DNA of 64,000 nucleotides from the NCBI RefSeq assembly GCF_002077945.1, contig NZ_LVYD01000001.1, positions 496,001 through 560,000 of the forward strand. Direction: 5' to 3'. Below are positions 28,076-57,013 of this stretch, in pieces (within the stretch, counting starts at the first letter, position 1; each line of letters opens with the position of its first letter). The notes under the pieces were generated by a model. That model was given only the letters and a program-made list of their open reading frames with translations. It was not told the DNA's origin and did no database searches. Source of the DNA: Niastella vici. Lineage in GTDB: Bacteria > Bacteroidota > Bacteroidia > Chitinophagales > Chitinophagaceae. The position numbers and the translations under genes were made by a program.

Positions 28076-28148
28076 GGTGCGGTAGCTCAGTCGGTAGAGC
28101 AAAGGACTGAAAATCCTTGTGTCGGCGGTTCGATCCCGCCCCACACCA
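28076..28148 (+). tRNA. tRNA-Phe (GAA), split by element insertion and rebuilt
   Basis: A full cloverleaf of 73 nt: D stem GCTC/GAGC, anticodon arm GGACTGAAAATCC with anticodon GAA, T arm GGCGG-TTCGATC-CCGCC, discriminator A, no encoded CCA. The 3' half from 28106 is the direct repeat used for integration of the mobile element. The acceptor stem GGTGCGG/CCACACC has a C5-A68 mismatch, unusual for the gene presumably serving as tRNA-Phe. Confidence 0.93.
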
Positions 28149-28149
28149 C
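28106..28149 (+). repeat. attL, 44-bp core of the integrative element
   Basis: The 44 bases from the anticodon arm to the 3' end of tRNA-Phe recur exactly at 56556-56599 and again at 56927-56970. This one is the left junction: beyond 28149 the sequence differs from the other two copies, which share the flank GAAGAGCC. Confidence 0.9.
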
Positions 28150-28196: not shown

Positions 28197-28216
28197 GGTC
28201 TAACATAGGTCTAACA
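28197..28216 (+). repeat. Left subterminal repeat, paired GGTCTAACA motif
   Basis: GGTCTAACATAGGTCTAACA contains the 9-mer GGTCTAACA twice with a TA spacer. The same 20 bases recur in the same orientation at 56434-56453 near the right end. Position and pairing suggest arm-type integrase binding sites. Confidence 0.7.
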
Positions 28217-28224
28217 TTGGCCTT

Positions 28225-28261
28225 CCATCTTACCTGATGGTATTTTCTATGGTAGAAAATA
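28225..28261. promoter_or_regulatory. Two dyads just upstream of the Argonaute fusion gene
   Basis: CCATC-TTACCT-GATGG (28225-28240) abuts the perfect 21-base palindrome-type dyad TATTTTCTA-TGG-TAGAAAATA (28241-28261). They end 30 bases before the ATG, where an operator would sit. No regulator gene is adjacent. Confidence 0.5.
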
Positions 28262-28291: not shown

Positions 28292-31200
28292 ATGGGTAAA
28301 AGAAATAGTCCAAGACACATTTTCGACAATCCAGATCAATATTTGGATTTTTTGACATTGCCTAATGATCGTGATTTTGAAGGCCAACTTTTCGATAGAA
28401 AGGAAGCCCCTCGTGCAGTCAATGGTGTTGTACGCAGTCAAGATATAAATACATTTAAAACTGATAATATTGTTCCCGTTTTATCTGGATTTGCAAACCA
28501 AAATCATGATGGCGGATTACTTGTCCTTGGCATAGCTTCCAATGGGCAAATAGTGGGAATAAACCACTTGAACGAAAACCAAATCAATTCATTAGCACAG
28601 ATCAACTATATAGTGAATCATAAAGTTGATTTTAAGATACATGAAATTGAGATAAATGGAACAACTCTTCAAATAGGGCTATTTTACAGCGGGTATGCCG
28701 ATAAGGCGATTTGTGAAACGGCAGGCAGCCCAAAGAGAGCTTGGCGTCGTAGTGGCCTTCAAAATCTTGAACTTACAGATATTGACATTGAATCGATGAA
28801 AAGAGACAAAGGTGTTGTTTCTTTTGAGCGTACAAATTGTAGTCGCTTTGATGAAAGCGATGTCGATAGTGATGTATATAAAGAATTCGCGAATACTTAT
28901 TTAGATAGCGCATCTTACACCTGGTCTACCACCGAGTTGTTGAAACGCTTTGGCGGGATCACAAAAATGCCTAATGACGAACTTTGGTTTACCAATTCAG
29001 GTGCATTGTTTTTTAGTGTAAACCCAGAAAGAGATATTCCCCAAGCCTTCATTCGTTTAGTTAGGTTTGATGTTCCCTACTCTGAGCATAGAAACAGGCC
29101 AGCCCCCACCTACGATAAAAAATTTTCCGGTAGCATTACAAAACAAATTAGGGACTTTAGAACGTTTATTTTAGAATCTGCCTTCTTTGAAGTATATCAA
29201 CGACGCAATCCATCGGGTGGTTTTATCGAAGAACCGGAATACCCCACCATTGCAATTGATGAGTCTGTAGTGAATGCGGTTGCCCACAGGGACTATGGCA
29301 TCGGCAAGCCTATTTTTTGTTATAAGTACACTGATGCGTTTGTCGTTATCAGTCCAGGTGGCATTATTCAAAGCGTCGATGTCCCGGAACATTTTTCGTT
29401 AGACAATACACATCTTGAACACCATTCCCGCAACCCACAGCTCATGGAATGGCTGCGTTCAATGAAAGATGCAAATGGAAGAGCCTTCGTCCAAGCTTTG
29501 CAGGAAGGCACTAAAAGAATGCGTGAAGAAATGGCAAAGCTTGGTTTGCAAGCGCCAGAATATATAACCACCCCATTAGAAACCCGGGTTATTCTTTATA
29601 ATAACTCTGCTACGCGTAAGGAGACTTCAAATGAAGAAAACGCGGATTCACCCGAATTTAGTAACCTTTATCCTTTCATGGGCGTTTCCCTTGAGCCCGA
29701 CCATGATAAAAGAGACCATCAAAAAAGGGAAATCATACTGGCATTGAAAAATAAGATGGCCGCGAGTGGATGGTTTATAGATCGTGATTCATTTGGACAA
29801 ATTACTGCACACAGACGCGGTGTGGCACTACCCTCAGTCGCTGCGGTATCTCAAATCGTCCAACTCTTTCCAGCGTATATTTTTCAAATGAAAGAGTATA
29901 AAGACCGATTATTCCTGCTGGTTGACTATACCGTTGAAGTACAAACCGTTTTGCTGCTTCCAAAAGTCCTGAATTATATATCGGCGGAACGTGTAATTAA
30001 TATGAGATGCATTTGCCAATTTCAAGGCTGGTCACATGGGAAAATAGTCGCGATCGAAAATGACTATTGCAGGGTTTTCATTTTTGATACGAAGACCGAA
30101 GAAACGCTGCCAATTAACAAAGTTATTCCTAAGCTGCCACAGGAATCAATCAAACAAGTTTTTGCGGCGCTTGGTGTGCAGTATGACTTACCTAAAGAAA
30201 TTAAAAAAGCGACCTTTGCAACAGACAAAAACGCATCAAGACTACGCGCCGATGTTACACGGAATGTAATAAATGATGTTTTTGAAAATATTTTTCCTTT
30301 AAAGATCGGTTCGTCAGCTTTAACAATTTCAACCGAACCGCTAAGAATGTCACCAAGAGGAGATGGGTCTAATTTATTACGAGTAGATGGCTTAAAGGAA
30401 CCGCAAGTCGAGTTTTCGAAACATAAAGCAAGTCCGGATGTTCGAGAAGGAATTACTCAATACGGATCATACGATAATAGCCCGAAAAATATTGAGATAA
30501 TCCCGCTATGCGGCTCGAATTTCCATTCGAACATGCAGGCTTTAATAGATCGCCTTCGTACAGGAAAATTTAAATTCAAAGGCAGTGAAAGGACATTTGG
30601 GGTAAAGCTAACATATAATACAGTTGTTAATGCTGATCCCCAAAATCTACAAAATGAGATTGGTCGCCTATTAGAGCAGCATCCGGAGTGGAAAGGAGAT
30701 AATACACTCTCAAGAATCTTTTTAGTCCATTGTCCAGAAGTTGGACATTCAATTGACGACGAAACATCTCCATATTACGTCATAAAAAGAATGCTATTGG
30801 AAGCTGGTATTCCTTGCCAGATGGTTGATACACCGACATTACTCAACCCTGATTTTAAAGATTTAAACTTAGCCCTAAATATTGTTGCGAAGTGCGGTCA
30901 AACGCCTTGGGTTTTACCAGAATCAATACCAGACTGTGATTTTTTCATAGGGCTATCCTATACACAGAACTATCGCAAGGGTTCAAACCGAGTCATGGCC
31001 TTCGCAAATGTCTTCAATGAATATGGAAGGTGGGAGTTTTACTCAGGTGGAAGCGAAGTTTTCGCATTCGATGATCGCGTAAAACATTATGAGGCGCTTG
31101 TCAAAGCAACCTTATCAAAACTAAAATTATCTGAAGAGCCAACAATTTGTTTCCATTATTCGGCAAAATTCTCAAGAGAGGATAAAGCTGCAATTCTGAA

Positions 31201-31645
31201 AGCAGCACGATCAATTAGACCAAACGGCACGTATGTATTTGTTTGGATCAATTCACATCACCATGTTAGACTTTATGATGACCGCCCGGAAACGACAGGA
31301 AGTTTAACAAGAGGCAGGTATGTTATTACGCGAGGAAATCAGATCTTATTGTCAACTACTGGAGATAACCCATACAGAAGGGCATTGGGCACACCCAAGC
31401 CGTTAGAGCTTAATATTTTCATTGAAGCTAAAAATAACATGGCGAAAACACCGGATTTACGAGTTTTAGCATCGCAGGTTTTAAGTTTAACGAAACTGAA
31501 CTGGGCATCGACAGACTCTCATTGTGCAGAGCCAATCACGACTAAATATGCCGGTGATATCGCGTATCTTACCGGAGCGTTCATGAGACAGGGCGGGGAA
31601 TTTAAACTTCATCCTGTATTGGAGCGAACCCCATGGTTTTTATAG
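28292..31645 (+). CDS. AlbA_2/HATPase-Argonaute (MID-PIWI) fusion protein
   Basis: 1117 residues. Seen: AlbA_2 (Schlafen-type) domain, about residues 27-165 (RDFEGQLFDRKEAPRA; GGLLVLGIASNGQIVGI; RRSGLQN); a RecG-C/HATPase_c_4 domain, about 200-400, with AIDESVVNAVAHRDYG; then an Argonaute-like half from about 455. Argonaute signatures: GITQYGSYDNSPKNIEI (L2, ~720-736), MID with YYVIKRMLLEAGIPCQMVD (Y829, K832, Q843) and NIVAKCGQTPWVL (K867), PIWI from ~884, and the C-terminal LTKLNWASTDSHCAEPITTK. PIWI catalytic Asp positions read IGLSYT and FHYSAKF, so slicing activity is probably lost. Inferred role: guide-directed sensing coupled to the Schlafen-like module in defence against invading DNA or RNA. 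It is cargo beside attL. The Argonaute call is strong, the mechanism is not known. Confidence 0.88.
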   Translation: MGKRNSPRHIFDNPDQYLDFLTLPNDRDFEGQLFDRKEAPRAVNGVVRSQDINTFKTDNIVPVLSGFANQNHDGGLLVLGIASNGQIVGINHLNENQINSLAQINYIVNHKVDFKIHEIEINGTTLQIGLFYSGYADKAICETAGSPKRAWRRSGLQNLELTDIDIESMKRDKGVVSFERTNCSRFDESDVDSDVYKEFANTYLDSASYTWSTTELLKRFGGITKMPNDELWFTNSGALFFSVNPERDIPQAFIRLVRFDVPYSEHRNRPAPTYDKKFSGSITKQIRDFRTFILESAFFEVYQRRNPSGGFIEEPEYPTIAIDESVVNAVAHRDYGIGKPIFCYKYTDAFVVISPGGIIQSVDVPEHFSLDNTHLEHHSRNPQLMEWLRSMKDANGRAFVQALQEGTKRMREEMAKLGLQAPEYITTPLETRVILYNNSATRKETSNEENADSPEFSNLYPFMGVSLEPDHDKRDHQKREIILALKNKMAASGWFIDRDSFGQITAHRRGVALPSVAAVSQIVQLFPAYIFQMKEYKDRLFLLVDYTVEVQTVLLLPKVLNYISAERVINMRCICQFQGWSHGKIVAIENDYCRVFIFDTKTEETLPINKVIPKLPQESIKQVFAALGVQYDLPKEIKKATFATDKNASRLRADVTRNVINDVFENIFPLKIGSSALTISTEPLRMSPRGDGSNLLRVDGLKEPQVEFSKHKASPDVREGITQYGSYDNSPKNIEIIPLCGSNFHSNMQALIDRLRTGKFKFKGSERTFGVKLTYNTVVNADPQNLQNEIGRLLEQHPEWKGDNTLSRIFLVHCPEVGHSIDDETSPYYVIKRMLLEAGIPCQMVDTPTLLNPDFKDLNLALNIVAKCGQTPWVLPESIPDCDFFIGLSYTQNYRKGSNRVMAFANVFNEYGRWEFYSGGSEVFAFDDRVKHYEALVKATLSKLKLSEEPTICFHYSAKFSREDKAAILKAARSIRPNGTYVFVWINSHHHVRLYDDRPETTGSLTRGRYVITRGNQILLSTTGDNPYRRALGTPKPLELNIFIEAKNNMAKTPDLRVLASQVLSLTKLNWASTDSHCAEPITTKYAGDIAYLTGAFMRQGGEFKLHPVLERTPWFL

Positions 31646-31679: not shown

Positions 31680-32963
31680 TCATCGCCTTAGTTGAATTTT
31701 CTTTAAGCATTCCAGCTTTTGAGCAAGCGTTACACCCTCGCCGTAATCAGGACGTTCAAACTTATGCCCCATCAAATCGGCCTGCTCCCTATCAAGCGCC
31801 TTAATGGCTAACAACCTATCCTGAAAACTGTGGCGCAGCGAATAGACCGAATGTTCTTCAGTGGGAAATAGCTTGTTTTCCGTTAGATACTTATTCAAAA
31901 GAGTGGTGAGGCTATCCGGTCGGCCAGCATATCTTGTAAACCCGTCAGGACATTCTTTGAAAGCATCCAACGCAAATCCAACAAGAGGAATTTCCCGTCG
32001 ACGGTACTTCGTTTTTTGAGTGCTGCCTTTGCGAGATACAATAACAATATGCGGAATTTCATCATCCAAGCGAATATCTTCCGGCAACAGACTAACGAGT
32101 TCGGAAATGCCTGCACCCGTTTCGGAAAACGCATACAAGGCATTTCTCGCCTGTTCGTTTAGCCCTGCAAGGTTTTCGGGTTTTAAGAAGGTTTCAAGGA
32201 GATATTCAGTAGTAAATGCTGGGCGTTTTCCTGCATCATCCCGCTTGATCTGTATTTTCTTAAATAAACGAATATCATCAAGGCCAAGCTCATAATGCTC
32301 GGCAACCGTTGTAATGATCGTTTTTACATTGATGAGTTCTTTGTTGGCAGTATTTGAAACGTACTCACCACTCTTCAGTCGCCCAATCCACCAATTTCTA
32401 AAGTTTACTATATCGCTGCGTGTCAGTTCTGGTAGTGGTTTATTGCCAACACATAACAGGAAATTTTTAAAGGCCCTTTTCCGTGGATTTTTCCATTTTT
32501 TAACTTGGCGTTCGGATTTATCGATTAGTTTATCTTTTGATAAATTCCAAAATAACCGCAGGGCATTTTTAAGTTGGATGACAGGCTTTTCTTCGGCACC
32601 AAGAACCGCTTCAACCTGTTTCTCATTGAAGTTTACTTTTTCAAGGTATTGGTAGCGGGCAATGATCTCATGGAACGGGCGTTCTGCAAGGAATTGGTTA
32701 TAATAATATGCAAACCCTAGTACCTGGGCGCGTTCTACAAGTGCCTTGTATTTGGACTCACTGTGCATTTCCCCGGTTTTATGCAGGGTATGCCAATAGG
32801 CTTCTAGCTGGTCGTTTTTTTCATCGGCTAACCGGATAGCGATTTTCTTGCTGTCAGTATTCAAAGACACGCGAACATAGTCGCGAGGGTCGTATTGTCT
32901 ATAAGCGTTCGGTACTTTTCGATTGTAGTAGTAAATGCCATTGCGATTCAGCAAGTGCGTCAT
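31680..32963 (-). CDS. Tyrosine recombinase, DUF6538-type integrase, degenerate active site
   Basis: 427 residues. The N-terminal block (LLNRNGIYYYNRKVPNAYRQ) is the DUF6538 domain common in proteobacterial-type island integrases. In the catalytic domain the first active-site Arg motif reads ETGAGISELVSL, with Gly285 where Arg is expected (GGC instead of CGC), and the box II motif reads YSLRHSF with Tyr in place of the usual His. Arg377, His400 (LMGH) and the Tyr407 nucleophile remain. It may therefore be weak or dead. It faces the Argonaute gene and probably belonged to the MobF island fused into this element. Confidence 0.82.
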   Translation of the reverse strand: MTHLLNRNGIYYYNRKVPNAYRQYDPRDYVRVSLNTDSKKIAIRLADEKNDQLEAYWHTLHKTGEMHSESKYKALVERAQVLGFAYYYNQFLAERPFHEIIARYQYLEKVNFNEKQVEAVLGAEEKPVIQLKNALRLFWNLSKDKLIDKSERQVKKWKNPRKRAFKNFLLCVGNKPLPELTRSDIVNFRNWWIGRLKSGEYVSNTANKELINVKTIITTVAEHYELGLDDIRLFKKIQIKRDDAGKRPAFTTEYLLETFLKPENLAGLNEQARNALYAFSETGAGISELVSLLPEDIRLDDEIPHIVIVSRKGSTQKTKYRRREIPLVGFALDAFKECPDGFTRYAGRPDSLTTLLNKYLTENKLFPTEEHSVYSLRHSFQDRLLAIKALDREQADLMGHKFERPDYGEGVTLAQKLECLKKIQLRR

Positions 32964-38973: not shown

Positions 38974-39849
38974 ATGACAGCGAACAAAAACAATTTATCA
39001 TTTGGAAAAAGATACGGATTTGAGCCTGTTGAAGTGCCATTTCAAGTGGATAGTATCAGTACCGATTTACGAACGGAACTGTGGAATGCGATTTACCTTT
39101 TCATTTTACAGCCTCTTCATGACGCCCAAAGTTATTCTGAAGATGGTTATAGAACCATACGTCGCATTATATGGGTTCATTATTTAATAAAACCGCTAGA
39201 TGATTTTCCTCGCGATTATGAGTTTGATGATGTCGTTAAACAATATATTGAGAAATCCGTTTGGTACAAAGTCTACGAATTTTTTGAATTCGTGCTGCGT
39301 CAATTCGATGAAAATGAAGGGCGTTATTCATACAATGACTTCATTCAATATATTAATGGCAAACTGAGGCAGCATAATTCGGCCTATACAATTATTAGTA
39401 ACAAATTCGTTCAGATAACAAATAGTACCGAAATAGCGGAAATAAATTCAACTGGGAGCCTCGCAAAAGAACATCACATTATTGGAATTCAAGAACACCT
39501 GAAAGCTGCTATTGATTTGTTCTCTAAAAAACCAAACCCTGACTATAGGAATTCCATTAAGGAAAGCATAAGTATGGTTGAGGTCATTAGCCGTATTATT
39601 GAACCTGAAAATACTTTAGGAAAAGCATTAAATAAGTTAGAAAAAAGTGGCTTTCTAAATCCTGTTTTGAAAGCAGGGTTTGAAAAGTTATATGCCTATA
39701 CCAATGACAAGAATGGGATACGGCACGCATTGCTCGAAGAAAAAAACATTGATACTTCAGATGCACGGTTCTTTTTAGTGTCATGTTCAGCTTTTACGAA
39801 TTATTTAATTGAAAAGGCAAGAAGCGCTAACCTTCTAAGAAAAATTTAA
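38974..39849 (+). CDS. AbiJ_NTD4-type abortive-infection protein
   Basis: 291 residues. Seen: LSFGKRYGFEPVEVPFQVDSISTDLRTELWNAIYLF, the N-terminal signature of AbiJ domain type 4, and a C-terminal DKNGIRHALLEEKNIDTSDARFFLVSCSAFTNYLIEKA, the conserved end of these proteins, probably HEPN-like. Known: AbiJ-related proteins protect lactococci from phage. It lies 9 bases upstream of an Mrr-type nuclease gene, a likely two-gene operon. AT-rich codon use differs from the MobF gene, suggesting separate acquisition. Confidence 0.78.
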   Translation: MTANKNNLSFGKRYGFEPVEVPFQVDSISTDLRTELWNAIYLFILQPLHDAQSYSEDGYRTIRRIIWVHYLIKPLDDFPRDYEFDDVVKQYIEKSVWYKVYEFFEFVLRQFDENEGRYSYNDFIQYINGKLRQHNSAYTIISNKFVQITNSTEIAEINSTGSLAKEHHIIGIQEHLKAAIDLFSKKPNPDYRNSIKESISMVEVISRIIEPENTLGKALNKLEKSGFLNPVLKAGFEKLYAYTNDKNGIRHALLEEKNIDTSDARFFLVSCSAFTNYLIEKARSANLLRKI

Positions 39850-39858
39850 CCGATTGCC

Positions 39859-40419
39859 ATGAAAAAGATGCCAGACAATATCGAAATTTCGCCTGAAGAG
39901 TTTGAAAAACTTGTTCATGAGTATTTGCTTGAAGCTGGTAAAGGGCTAAAGAAATTCGAAGCCGTTCATGATGTTAAAATGCAGGCTCACGACGGGACTT
40001 ATCAAATCGATATAAAGGCAACTTTTGAAGCAATAAATTGTGACATTGTTATTTTGATTGAATGCAAGAGGCATTCTGCACCAATAAAAAGAGAGATCGT
40101 TCAGGTTTTGAATGATAAAGTTCGTTCATTAGGAGCACATAAAGGCATTCTCTTTTCTACGTCCCCATTTCAAGGAGGAGCCAAAACATATGCACAAGAG
40201 CATGGCATAGCCACAGTTCAATTGATAGAAGGCCGATTTACTTATGTCACCAAGGCCGCCGGAGAACAGGAATTCAACCCTCCTTTCTGGGCTAACATCC
40301 CCAAATATGTGGGCCAATTTGAATATGCAAGCGGGTCTTATTACCTTTTACAACCCGGGTATATTGATAAGTTATCTGAGTTTATTTTTATAGACGGGAA
40401 AGAATATCAAAAAAACTAA
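39859..40419 (+). CDS. Mrr-type restriction endonuclease
   Basis: 186 residues. PD-(D/E)xK core: the QIDIKATFEA strand (Asp51), then IVILIECKRH (Glu68, Lys70), followed by VLNDKVRSLGAHKGILFSTSPFQGGAKTYAQEHGI, typical of the Mrr_cat domain. An ATG at 39868 is an alternative start. Known Mrr-like nucleases cut methylated or foreign DNA. The unusual C-terminal 55 residues (FNPPFWANIPKYVGQFEYASG) are unassigned. With the AbiJ-like gene it may form one defence system. Confidence 0.82.
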   Translation: MKKMPDNIEISPEEFEKLVHEYLLEAGKGLKKFEAVHDVKMQAHDGTYQIDIKATFEAINCDIVILIECKRHSAPIKREIVQVLNDKVRSLGAHKGILFSTSPFQGGAKTYAQEHGIATVQLIEGRFTYVTKAAGEQEFNPPFWANIPKYVGQFEYASGSYYLLQPGYIDKLSEFIFIDGKEYQKN

Positions 40420-53111: not shown

Positions 53112-54368
53112 TTATACAGGCTTTACGGATTGTGCCTTGGTCTTGCTAAGAACTGCATCCAAAGCCTCGTCCGCGTCTTCATGAATAAAGTTTTGTTGAT
53201 AATTGATAGTCGTTTTCACATCTGAATGCCTGTAGAGCTTTTGCAGTTTTTGAATATCAACCGTCCCGCCTGCCAAAGTCGCAAATGTATGACGGGCAAT
53301 GTGGAGAGTAAGTTTTTTTTCAATCCCCGCAGCAGGTGCAACATGCTCTTGCAAAAATTTATCAATAGCACTGATCTTGAAACCGATTGTTCGCTTTGTG
53401 ACAAACTGGTCGCTCAAGTCAACGCCTTTTAATTCAGGGAACACCAGATCATTCTTGTTTTCCTTGAATTGTTCGTAGTATTTCAGGATACGGGCAGCCT
53501 CATCGGGTACTTTCAATGAACCCGTCTTTTTATTCTTGCCCATTGTGTAATATAGACGGCCATCCTGAAAGTCAGGCCATTTCAGGCGAAAAGCATCGGA
53601 AGCCCGCATTCCGGCAAAATAGAACAGGAACAGCCACAGCTTTCGGGCATGTTCATAACGAGGATCAACAAGCTCGACGTTTTCAAGGGCAATTACCTCT
53701 GTCCGGGAAAGGCCGATCTTTGTTGTTTCGGGAAAAACGATTTTAAATCCCTTTTTACCAAACGGTGTCAATTTCTCATCGACACCAGCCTGATCCCTTG
53801 CAAATGCAAAGACAGAACGGATGGTTACGAAATGATTGGCGACCGATGTGTCGTTGAGGCGTTTTTTCTTTTTTCCTTTGGGTTTGTATACTGTTTTAAG
53901 CCAGGTTTCAAAACGCTGGAGCAATCCAACCGTCAAATCTGAAAACACGAGATCTTGTCCATTCAGAAACTCACGGAAATGTTTGATCCGTGGTCTTTCC
54001 GACATATAGATATTATAATTTGTCGCCTTTTTTACTTTCAGGTATTCTTCCGCTTGTGCGAAAAACGATACTCCGGCTTTTGGCTTGATTTTTTGCCGGA
54101 TGGCTTTAGCGGTGGCTTCAGGCTTCTTGGTTTCTATATCAAGGGCATTATCGGTAGCTTCCGCCAATTTTTTACGAAACAGATTATTCAAGCGCTGATG
54201 ATTAGGGTGGGATTTTTTGACTTCCTTTTTATCATCATCCCAATGTTCAAGTGCTATTTTGCCAATCGTAATAATAGATGGGAACCGATCTTTAATGATC
54301 CGGATAGCGATGGGATAAGTACCATCTTTATTTTGTTTTTTGCGTCTAATAATACTTACAGAAGACAT
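53112..54368 (-). CDS. Tyrosine recombinase, Bacteroidota-type integrase, complete active site
   Basis: 418 residues. N-terminal arm-binding domain (SVSIIRRKKQNKDGTYPIAIRI), SAM-like core-binding domain about 100-200, then the catalytic domain with Arg255 (FAGMRASDAF), Lys near 278-281, His356 and Arg359 (LTLHIARHTFATLAG), His381 (YRHSD) and the Tyr390 nucleophile (TTINYQQNF). Known family: Bacteroidota conjugative transposon and tRNA-element integrases. It lies 2.2 kb from attR and is the most likely enzyme for integration into tRNA-Phe. Confidence 0.92.
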   Translation of the reverse strand: MSSVSIIRRKKQNKDGTYPIAIRIIKDRFPSIITIGKIALEHWDDDKKEVKKSHPNHQRLNNLFRKKLAEATDNALDIETKKPEATAKAIRQKIKPKAGVSFFAQAEEYLKVKKATNYNIYMSERPRIKHFREFLNGQDLVFSDLTVGLLQRFETWLKTVYKPKGKKKKRLNDTSVANHFVTIRSVFAFARDQAGVDEKLTPFGKKGFKIVFPETTKIGLSRTEVIALENVELVDPRYEHARKLWLFLFYFAGMRASDAFRLKWPDFQDGRLYYTMGKNKKTGSLKVPDEAARILKYYEQFKENKNDLVFPELKGVDLSDQFVTKRTIGFKISAIDKFLQEHVAPAAGIEKKLTLHIARHTFATLAGGTVDIQKLQKLYRHSDVKTTINYQQNFIHEDADEALDAVLSKTKAQSVKPV

Positions 54369-56433: not shown

Positions 56434-56453
56434 GGTCTAACATAGGTCTAACA
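56434..56453 (+). repeat. Right subterminal repeat, paired GGTCTAACA motif
   Basis: Exact copy of the 20-base repeat at 28197-28216, in the same orientation, 103 bases inside attR (48 bases inside attL on the left). Confidence 0.7.
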
Positions 56454-56555
56454 ATTGCCCCATTTGGATGAAGTTATTTGAATTCGCTTTTAAGAATGTA
56501 ATTGATAATCAGTGTTTTGAATTCACCTGAAACCAAATTAAGTCATTGAATTTAC

Positions 56556-56599
56556 ACTGAAAATCCTTGTGTCGGCGGTTCGATCCCGCCCCACACCAC
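56556..56599 (+). repeat. attR, 44-bp core of the integrative element
   Basis: Exact copy of the tRNA-Phe 3' half, without the tRNA 5' half, followed by the native flank GAAGAGCC and its hairpin. Marks the right junction. Confidence 0.92.
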
Positions 56600-56603
56600 G
56601 AAG

Positions 56604-56633
56604 AGCCTTTGATTAAAATCAGAGGCTTTTTTA
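56604..56633 (+). terminator. Native tRNA-Phe terminator, first copy
   Basis: AGCCTTTGATT-AA-AATCAGAGGCT (one G-T pair) and a T run. The second copy at 56975 is perfect, showing a base change that keeps pairing. Confidence 0.8.
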
Positions 56634-56637
56634 TTTT

Positions 56638-56931
56638 ATGTACTTCGTTTACATCCTTTATTCAATTTCTTCCGGCAAAACTTATGTTGGATTTTCCAAC
56701 AACGTCGAAAGAAGACTCAGTGAGCATAATATCACTGAAAGTACAGGCTTTACCCTTCGCTATAGACCATGGACTTTAATCCAAACGGAAGAGTATTCTA
56801 CTAAACAACAAGCAATGGCAAGGGAAAAATTTCTTAAAACAGGTCGGGGAAGAGAAGAAATCAAAAATTACGTCACAAAATATTTGAAAGCATCCGATGG
56901 TGCGGTATCCGCCGCGGCGGAAAAGGACTGA
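56638..56931 (+). CDS. Small GIY-YIG endonuclease of a tRNA-associated cassette
   Basis: 97 residues. MYFVYILYSISSGKTYVGFSNNVERRLSEHN is the GIY-YIG core (YVG in place of YIG) with the catalytic Arg and a later Glu (ARE/KFLKTGRGREE). Known: short Bacteroidota GIY-YIG proteins of this type are common beside RNA genes. Unusual here: its last ~14 codons run through a degenerate tRNA-Phe (56899 onward), and the stop codon TGA lies inside the anticodon arm. Confidence 0.87.
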   Translation: MYFVYILYSISSGKTYVGFSNNVERRLSEHNITESTGFTLRYRPWTLIQTEEYSTKQQAMAREKFLKTGRGREEIKNYVTKYLKASDGAVSAAAEKD

Positions 56932-56969
56932 AAATCCTTGTGTCGGCGGTTCGATCCCGCCCCACACCA
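56899..56969 (+). pseudogene. Degenerate tRNA-Phe copy with palindrome in place of the D arm
   Basis: Matches tRNA-Phe at both ends: GATGGTGCGGTA (56896-56907) and 49 bases from 56922 to 56970. The 16 bases of the D arm (28085-28100) are replaced by the 14-base perfect palindrome TCCGCCGCGGCGGA. It cannot fold a D arm and is part of the GIY-YIG reading frame. Confidence 0.85.
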
Positions 56970-57013
56970 CGAAGAGCCTCTGATTTTAATCAGAGGCTTT
57001 TTTATGTACTTCG
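56927..57013 (+). repeat. Second copy of the tRNA 3' half-terminator-GIY-YIG start unit
   Basis: Repeats 56556-56647: tRNA 3' half, terminator hairpin, and the first ten bases of the GIY-YIG gene (ATGTACTTCG). Here the reading frame stops after four codons. The period is 371 bp, so the cassette forms one and a bit tandem units. Confidence 0.85.
56975..57003 (+). terminator. Native tRNA-Phe terminator, second copy
   Basis: AGCCTCTGATT-TT-AATCAGAGGCT, a perfect 11-bp stem followed by T residues. Confidence 0.82.

Follow-up and report, generated by a model that had tools for sequence, protein, structure and literature searches.

A Schlafen-type AlbA_2-GHKL module fused to a catalytically inactive long Argonaute in a mobile element of Niastella vici

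The 64,000-nucleotide stretch of the Niastella vici genome analysed here (the window) contains, beside the tRNA-Phe end of a mobile element, a single gene in which a bacterial-Schlafen module, i.e., an AlbA_2 domain followed by a GHKL-like domain, is joined to a full-length long prokaryotic Argonaute (pAgo) with a guide pocket and a PIWI domain devoid of catalytic aspartates. We propose, at a probability of roughly 0.5, that the product is a guide-directed sensor with a functional fused Schlafen effector, in which target binding is the switch, and that it serves as an element-borne defence. The architecture is already known: it was listed in 2018 (PMC6299218) and is contained in PADLOC-DB of 2023. 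The features on which the analysis rests are collected in Table 1.

Table 1. Position of the fusion gene, its domains and the landmarks of the surrounding element in the window
Feature	Position	Strand	Basis and remarks
tRNA-Phe(gaa) with attL (49-bp repeat, 28101-28149)	28076..28149	+	repeat comparison
short repeats GGTCTAACAT...	28197..28233	+	26-bp repeat, with a second copy at 56434-56459 close to the opposite end
fusion gene (Schlafen-type AlbA_2-GHKL module + dead long Argonaute), 1117 aa	28292..31645	+	ORF, Pfam, PADLOC
AlbA_2 (Schlafen) domain, residues ~21-158	28352..28765	+	Pfam match at residues 60-158; E30, D35, K37, E38; 82/83 non-acidic
HATPase_c_4 / RecG-C GHKL-like domain, residues 338-435	29303..29596	+	Pfam
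Argonaute N, L1, PAZ-like and L2 region, residues ~453-819	29648..30748	+	by predicted fold; Foldseek and VIA matches to RsAgo; borders approximate
MID-PIWI, residues 823-1096	30758..31579	+	Y828, K832, Q843, K867 kept; S889, S957, G1088 at catalytic positions
tyrosine recombinase, adjoining and convergent with the fusion gene	31680..32963	-	PHROG integrase 3.6e-18; Pfam DUF6538 3.8e-11; Phage_integrase under cut-off
second tyrosine recombinase, near the right end	53112..54368	-	PHROG integrase 7.9e-34
internal att copy, 44 bp matching attL, 371 bp before attR	56556..56599	+	repeat comparison
attR, 49 bp repeating the 3' end of tRNA-Phe	56922..56970	+	repeat comparison

The open reading frame is intact, and Pfam places three domains on the encoded protein, all over the curated cut-offs: SLFN_AlbA_2 (PF04326) at residues 60-158, HATPase_c_4 (PF13749) at residues 338-435 and Piwi (PF02171) at residues 823-1096, the last scoring 33.6 bits against a cut-off of 28.9. 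AlbA_2 followed by RecG-C/GHKL is the domain order of bacterial Schlafens, and just 5' of the HATPase_c_4 match lies the GHKL N-box, formed by E324, N328, H332, R333 and Y335. One PADLOC model, PDLC02394, covers residues 4-1117 of the window protein with model positions 1-1121 of 1121 (1859.6 bits), and also spans six further fusions that were scanned, over the whole or almost the whole of their length. Residues 53-444 are matched by PHROG 12156, which is labelled DNA helicase (7.4e-43). When a profile of the N-terminal half was built from four fusions and three standalone proteins, it matched PDB 3lmm over almost its full length (7.8e-22); weaker matches were to chains named SLFN11, Schlafen 8, SLFN12, SLFN5 and SLFN14. 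Two other PADLOC models, PDLC02402 (E 2.3e-11) and PDLC02418 (9.8e-9), which describe SIR2-PNTD1-PNTD2 pAgo-associated proteins, match fusion residues 208-363, hinting that a related module is perhaps present inside some SIR2-type pAgo partners.

For the Argonaute half, a predicted structure was compared with known pAgos. The full-length AlphaFold2 model, made from 5 rows, was poor (mean pLDDT 59, pTM 0.29), and the fold search used a model of the Argonaute half. This predicted model has the complete N-L1-PAZ-L2-MID-PIWI fold, and its top fold matches by Foldseek and VIA were RsAgo complexes with guide RNA and target DNA, at ~16% identity to RsAgo across the structural alignment. The best PDB sequence match of the family profile was a chain of 731 aa named EcAgo (1.8e-19), a length that is also given for the BPAN pAgo (PMC10620215). 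In the alignment the guide-pocket residues Y828, K832, Q843 and K867 are conserved in 9/9 fusions having a complete MID. Read against AaAgo, TtAgo and other active pAgos, the catalytic Asp positions of the same nine proteins are without Asp (S or A at 889, S or A at 957, and G, R or L at 1088), and the DEDX tetrad, as judged on its three Asp positions, is absent. An earlier reading of this DNA, made from the sequence only, had described a Schlafen-type module joined to a full-length Argonaute-like part, with Ser889 in a PIWI that lacked catalytic Asp; the former is borne out by Pfam, PADLOC and the predicted fold, the latter by all nine complete-MID fusions. Its suggested comparison of the C-terminal half with pAgo structures returned the RsAgo complexes as top fold matches of the predicted model. 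Among the guide residues that it named, K832, Q843 and K867 belong to an intact pocket, and Y829 was one residue off, the correct tyrosine being Y828.

Ten fusions were gathered from at least four phyla, so many loci that an assembly artefact or chance fusion is ruled out. The relatives, with their identity to the window protein, are from Rubrobacter radiotolerans plasmid 3 (50%), a Poribacteria MAG (47%), a Pirellulales MAG (45%), Runella zeae (40%), a Bacteroidetes MAG (39%; the same sequence as the protein of genome G046, which belongs to the window's order), two genomes of the window's phylum (L017 and L018, 47% each) and two IMG/VR contigs (L048, 48%; L049, 37%). The open frame is full-length in 9/10 copies, identities to the window protein ranging over 37-50%; that of L049 (1492-3993) stops inside MID, 131 bp before the contig end, and this copy was included among the ten for AlbA_2 and left out for MID-PIWI. 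With the window's genome included each time, the full fusion occurs in 2/59 relatives sampled (G000 and G046), in 3/395 genomes sampled from the phylum and in 1/395 genomes sampled from the class. A first scan of genome contigs with the single window protein, and a first scan of viral contigs, gave no match; among 15 records from a phage collection, none covered >80% of the query, and the matches listed lie in the AlbA_2/GHKL half only.

The relationships of these proteins were analysed on a mixture-model tree built from 35 MID-PIWI rows aligned over 275 columns, in which the nine fusions with complete MID-PIWI form one starred clade (support 97/97). The nearest outside row, on a long branch, is an Adhaeribacter plasmid pAgo (89/86). 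Separate from the fusions stand the short pAgos (100/99) and a 16-row set with RsAgo, EcAgo and SIR2-linked pAgo (100/99). The best tree unites the fusions with the 16 long-B rows at a support of only 57/18, and AU tests rejected neither the fusions with the short pAgos (p-AU 0.488) nor the fusions with long-A (p-AU 0.287). Nesting with the RsAgo/EcAgo subclade, a group named after the tree had been seen, was rejected (p-AU 0.002), and a placement beside the single SPARTA row in an earlier tree was lost under the mixture model; the earliest tree, which had one long-A anchor, was replaced by the later ones. The fusions appear on this alignment to form a deep lineage of their own, and no earlier description of it was met in the literature searched.

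Three other pAgo loci were observed alongside this analysis. The Adhaeribacter radiodurans plasmid pAgo (L010:2945-6777) carries the annotation of a topoisomerase-type C4 zinc finger protein; an overlapping gene of ~505 aa with no assigned function follows it. The window's genome has a second pAgo (G000:C45, L070:1936-4771). This short pAgo, of 516 aa, clusters with that of SPARTA (99/99) and overlaps an upstream 430-aa ORF, which may be a TIR-APAZ-type partner. In another genome of the phylum (L026:383-3777), a long inactive pAgo gene overlaps a downstream SIR2_2 gene, i.e., the BPAS arrangement.

Ryazansky 2018 reported seven long pAgos that carry Schlafen or lambda-repressor-like domains, AlbA_2 fusions among them, and classed the AlbA_2 fusions as long-B (PMC6299218). 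They have the same N-terminal Schlafen AlbA_2 on an inactive long pAgo as the window protein, and the window family very probably corresponds to these proteins and to PDLC02394. The sections of that survey available to us name AlbA_2 alone, as a DNA-binding domain and without experiment. The novelty provisionally claimed in the sequence-only reading was overstated, given the 2018 listing (PMC6299218) and the full-length PADLOC model. The search that it had recommended, for proteins with both AlbA_2 and PIWI, yielded the ten fusions of a previously listed architecture and, in the literature searched, no characterisation. In that literature, which mostly excludes subscription papers, this survey is the sole recognised paper on the fusion, and we found neither an experiment on a Schlafen-Argonaute fusion nor guide, target, toxicity or phage data.

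In the BPAN/BPAS/BPAM systems the effector, a nuclease, SIR2 or TM protein, is encoded by a separate gene downstream of the pAgo (PMC10620215). In the window such a downstream effector gene is absent and the convergent integrase stands there instead. No adjacent partner gene is common to the ten neighbourhoods (181 frames with ATG starts and >=90 aa), several of which break off after a few kb, L011, L048 and L049 being short on one side. The sole pairs among them are a metal P-type ATPase, away from the fusion in L009 and L012, and frames antisense to the fusion. A first listing of pairs had left out those in which both frames exceeded 800 aa; repeated on the same 181 frames without this filter, it gave the same result. 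A DUF1828 gene upstream of the fusion in L017 was considered as a partner and is not common to the other loci. Because no adjacent gene is shared by the ten neighbourhoods, the fusion looks like a one-gene system, a property for which we met no earlier description in the literature searched.

A dead long Argonaute covalently joined to a bacterial-Schlafen module would make a single-gene, element-borne defence protein. The Argonaute would bind a 5'-phosphorylated guide, probably RNA as for RsAgo and EcAgo, and once loaded would sense complementary invader DNA. Target binding would then reposition or oligomerise the N-terminal module, which a nucleotide in the GHKL pocket would gate, and the switched-on Schlafen module would act, most likely on tRNA or other RNA, so that the infected cell stops growing. 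This is the simplest reading when two kinds of system are considered jointly. The BPAN pAgo is directed to DNA by guide RNA, and its effector is activated on target recognition (PMC10620215); AlbA_2-GHKL Schlafens near BREX have been proposed as RNase effectors in a paper whose references include a preprint of 2025 about Schlafens of bacteria in relation to anti-phage defence (PMC12839542).

With BPAN/BPAS/BPAM the fusions share a dead long pAgo with a guide pocket and, as working model, effector-based abortive infection; the fusions, however, carry an N-terminal fused module in place of the downstream effector (PMC10620215). With bacterial Schlafens, described with a wHTH in PMC12839542, they share the two-domain AlbA_2 and GHKL-like kinase module, the invariant GHKL residues and the match to PDB 3lmm; in the fusions, however, the pAgo follows the GHKL domain and the carboxylate triad is incomplete. 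RsAgo is the top fold match, also lacks catalytic Asp and has the YK...Q...K pocket, but is without the N-terminal Schlafen module. SPARTA and other short pAgos are inactive pAgos in complexes bearing an effector domain; they differ in having no N-PAZ, a TIR-APAZ effector and a separate starred clade.

Caution about an effector role stems mainly from the incomplete triad. The Schlafen triad consists of E205, E210 and D248 of rat SLFN13, of which the E205A and E210A mutants were wholly inactive and the D248 mutant was diminished (PMC5862951), so that an enzyme without the third acid is conceivable. In the fusions the geometry of the AlbA_2 site was read from the alignment alone, and the D248 equivalent (82/83) was placed via the match to GVDD of SLFN11 and spacing. 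E30 and D35 have the spacing of five of SLFN13 E205/E210; residue 30 is E in 8/10 fusions and H in two, residue 35 is D in 8/10 and E in two, and K37 and E38 are each kept in all ten. Positions 82/83 are without an acid in eight fusions, which have A, S or K instead; the other two, L013 and L014, have Asp there by an ungapped reading, but His replaces their first Glu. L017 and L018 have Asp at 84, one residue beyond the site and uncounted by the rule. By a hand count from alignment rows, in which a triad is called complete when D/E occupies positions 30 and 35 and either 82 or 83, the triad is complete in 0/10 fusions and in 22/27 standalone relatives with AlbA_2-GHKL, taken from genomes and from IMG/VR contigs; a stricter rule, with position 82 alone as the third acid, gives 17/27 for the standalone proteins and still 0/10 for the fusions. 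The standalone set comprises the 31/42 candidate frames that passed the profile, less L008, L057, L059 and L063, in which the site is unaligned. Because rows are related within each set, the contrast amounts to one or few evolutionary events.

In the GHKL domain, E324, N328, H332, R333, Y335, G356, N381 and G406 are invariant in both sets (10/10 and 27/27). Residues invariant in the ten fusions and rare in the standalone proteins include Q32 (3/27) and E38 (5/27), as well as H92, C141, R305, E314, C343 and W387, each in 0/27, the columns of H92 and R305 being gaps in most standalone rows. Loss of the Schlafen triad in every fusion together with retention of the GHKL residues, as read from these alignments, was not found described in the literature searched. 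The incomplete triad, which the sequence-only reading had missed, weakens the plain nuclease-effector reading of the Schlafen half: if the half is a nuclease, its centre is altered, and the fused module may cut with such a changed centre or may only bind.

RsAgo is not known to need a fused effector. The Schlafen half could be an accessory, i.e., a nucleic-acid- and nucleotide-binding platform for guide loading, target holding or dimers, with the dead Argonaute binding as RsAgo does and host nucleases cutting. We regard this as possible but on the whole doubtful. The triad contrast with invariant GHKL residues speaks for it, as does the treatment of AlbA_2 as a DNA-binding domain by Ryazansky 2018 (PMC6299218); the retention of E30, D/E35, K37 and E38, however, goes beyond the needs of a mere scaffold, and a nearby partner effector gene common to the loci was not found in the ten neighbourhoods.

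We further analysed the element around the gene, which starts 142 bp past tRNA-Phe. Its position beside the attL of a mobile element, claimed earlier from the sequence, agrees with the 49-bp att repeats of tRNA-Phe and the recombinases. Between the att sites lie the two tyrosine recombinases and genes for a TrwC-type relaxase-helicase, an AbiJ_NTD4 protein and an Mrr-type nuclease. The AbiJ_NTD4 gene is closely followed by that of the Mrr-type restriction endonuclease (38974-40419), and the two are a candidate defence pair. The GGTCTAACAT repeats are possible integrase arm sites. At 56556-57005 both right-hand att copies are followed by a near-identical hairpin and T run, and the extra copy with its hairpin was perhaps left behind by a further integration at this tRNA. 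In L009 the fusion is on a plasmid and is followed by a Tn3 transposase and a tyrosine recombinase, and in L048, as in the window, a recombinase adjoins it, there of the integrase/invertase type.

This setting bears on the idea that the fusion serves the element and not the host, by excluding competing plasmids or rival elements at the tRNA-Phe site or by maintaining the element. The gene is flanked by attL and a recombinase, the presence of three att copies suggests repeated integration at the site, and the L009 and L048 copies are also associated with mobile DNA. Host-defence genes, though, are often carried on mobile elements too; inspection by eye of the listed frames (>=150 aa) in the Runella and UBA2322 loci showed no recombinase; and the idea differs from our main reading in the invader alone, the mechanism being the same. 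We consider it rather improbable. A decayed or cargo gene without function is very unlikely, for although both nuclease centres look impaired and the L049 copy is broken in MID near a contig end, the other nine copies are full-length and the family, at 37-50% identity across at least four phyla, keeps many invariant motifs.

Within the preferred reading, that of a guide-directed sensor with a fused Schlafen effector, a more specific form can be put forward tentatively. The protein may be a guide-programmed Schlafen, in which target recognition by the dead Argonaute would activate, via a GHKL nucleotide switch, a rebuilt AlbA_2 centre made of E30, D/E35, K37 and E38, with Q32 and H92, both specific to the family, close to the site of the lost acid; the fusions would then add one more deep lineage to the inactive pAgos, with an effector logic of its own.

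Schlafens and Argonautes are both widespread antiviral families, the former being tRNA nucleases in mammals and having been proposed as RNase effectors in bacteria. A fusion of the two would show directly if guide-directed sensing can drive a Schlafen, and as a one-gene arrangement it makes the role of partner-less dead long pAgos testable. The contrast between a triad carboxylate lost from every fusion examined and fully retained GHKL residues provides a sharp test of effector versus accessory function.
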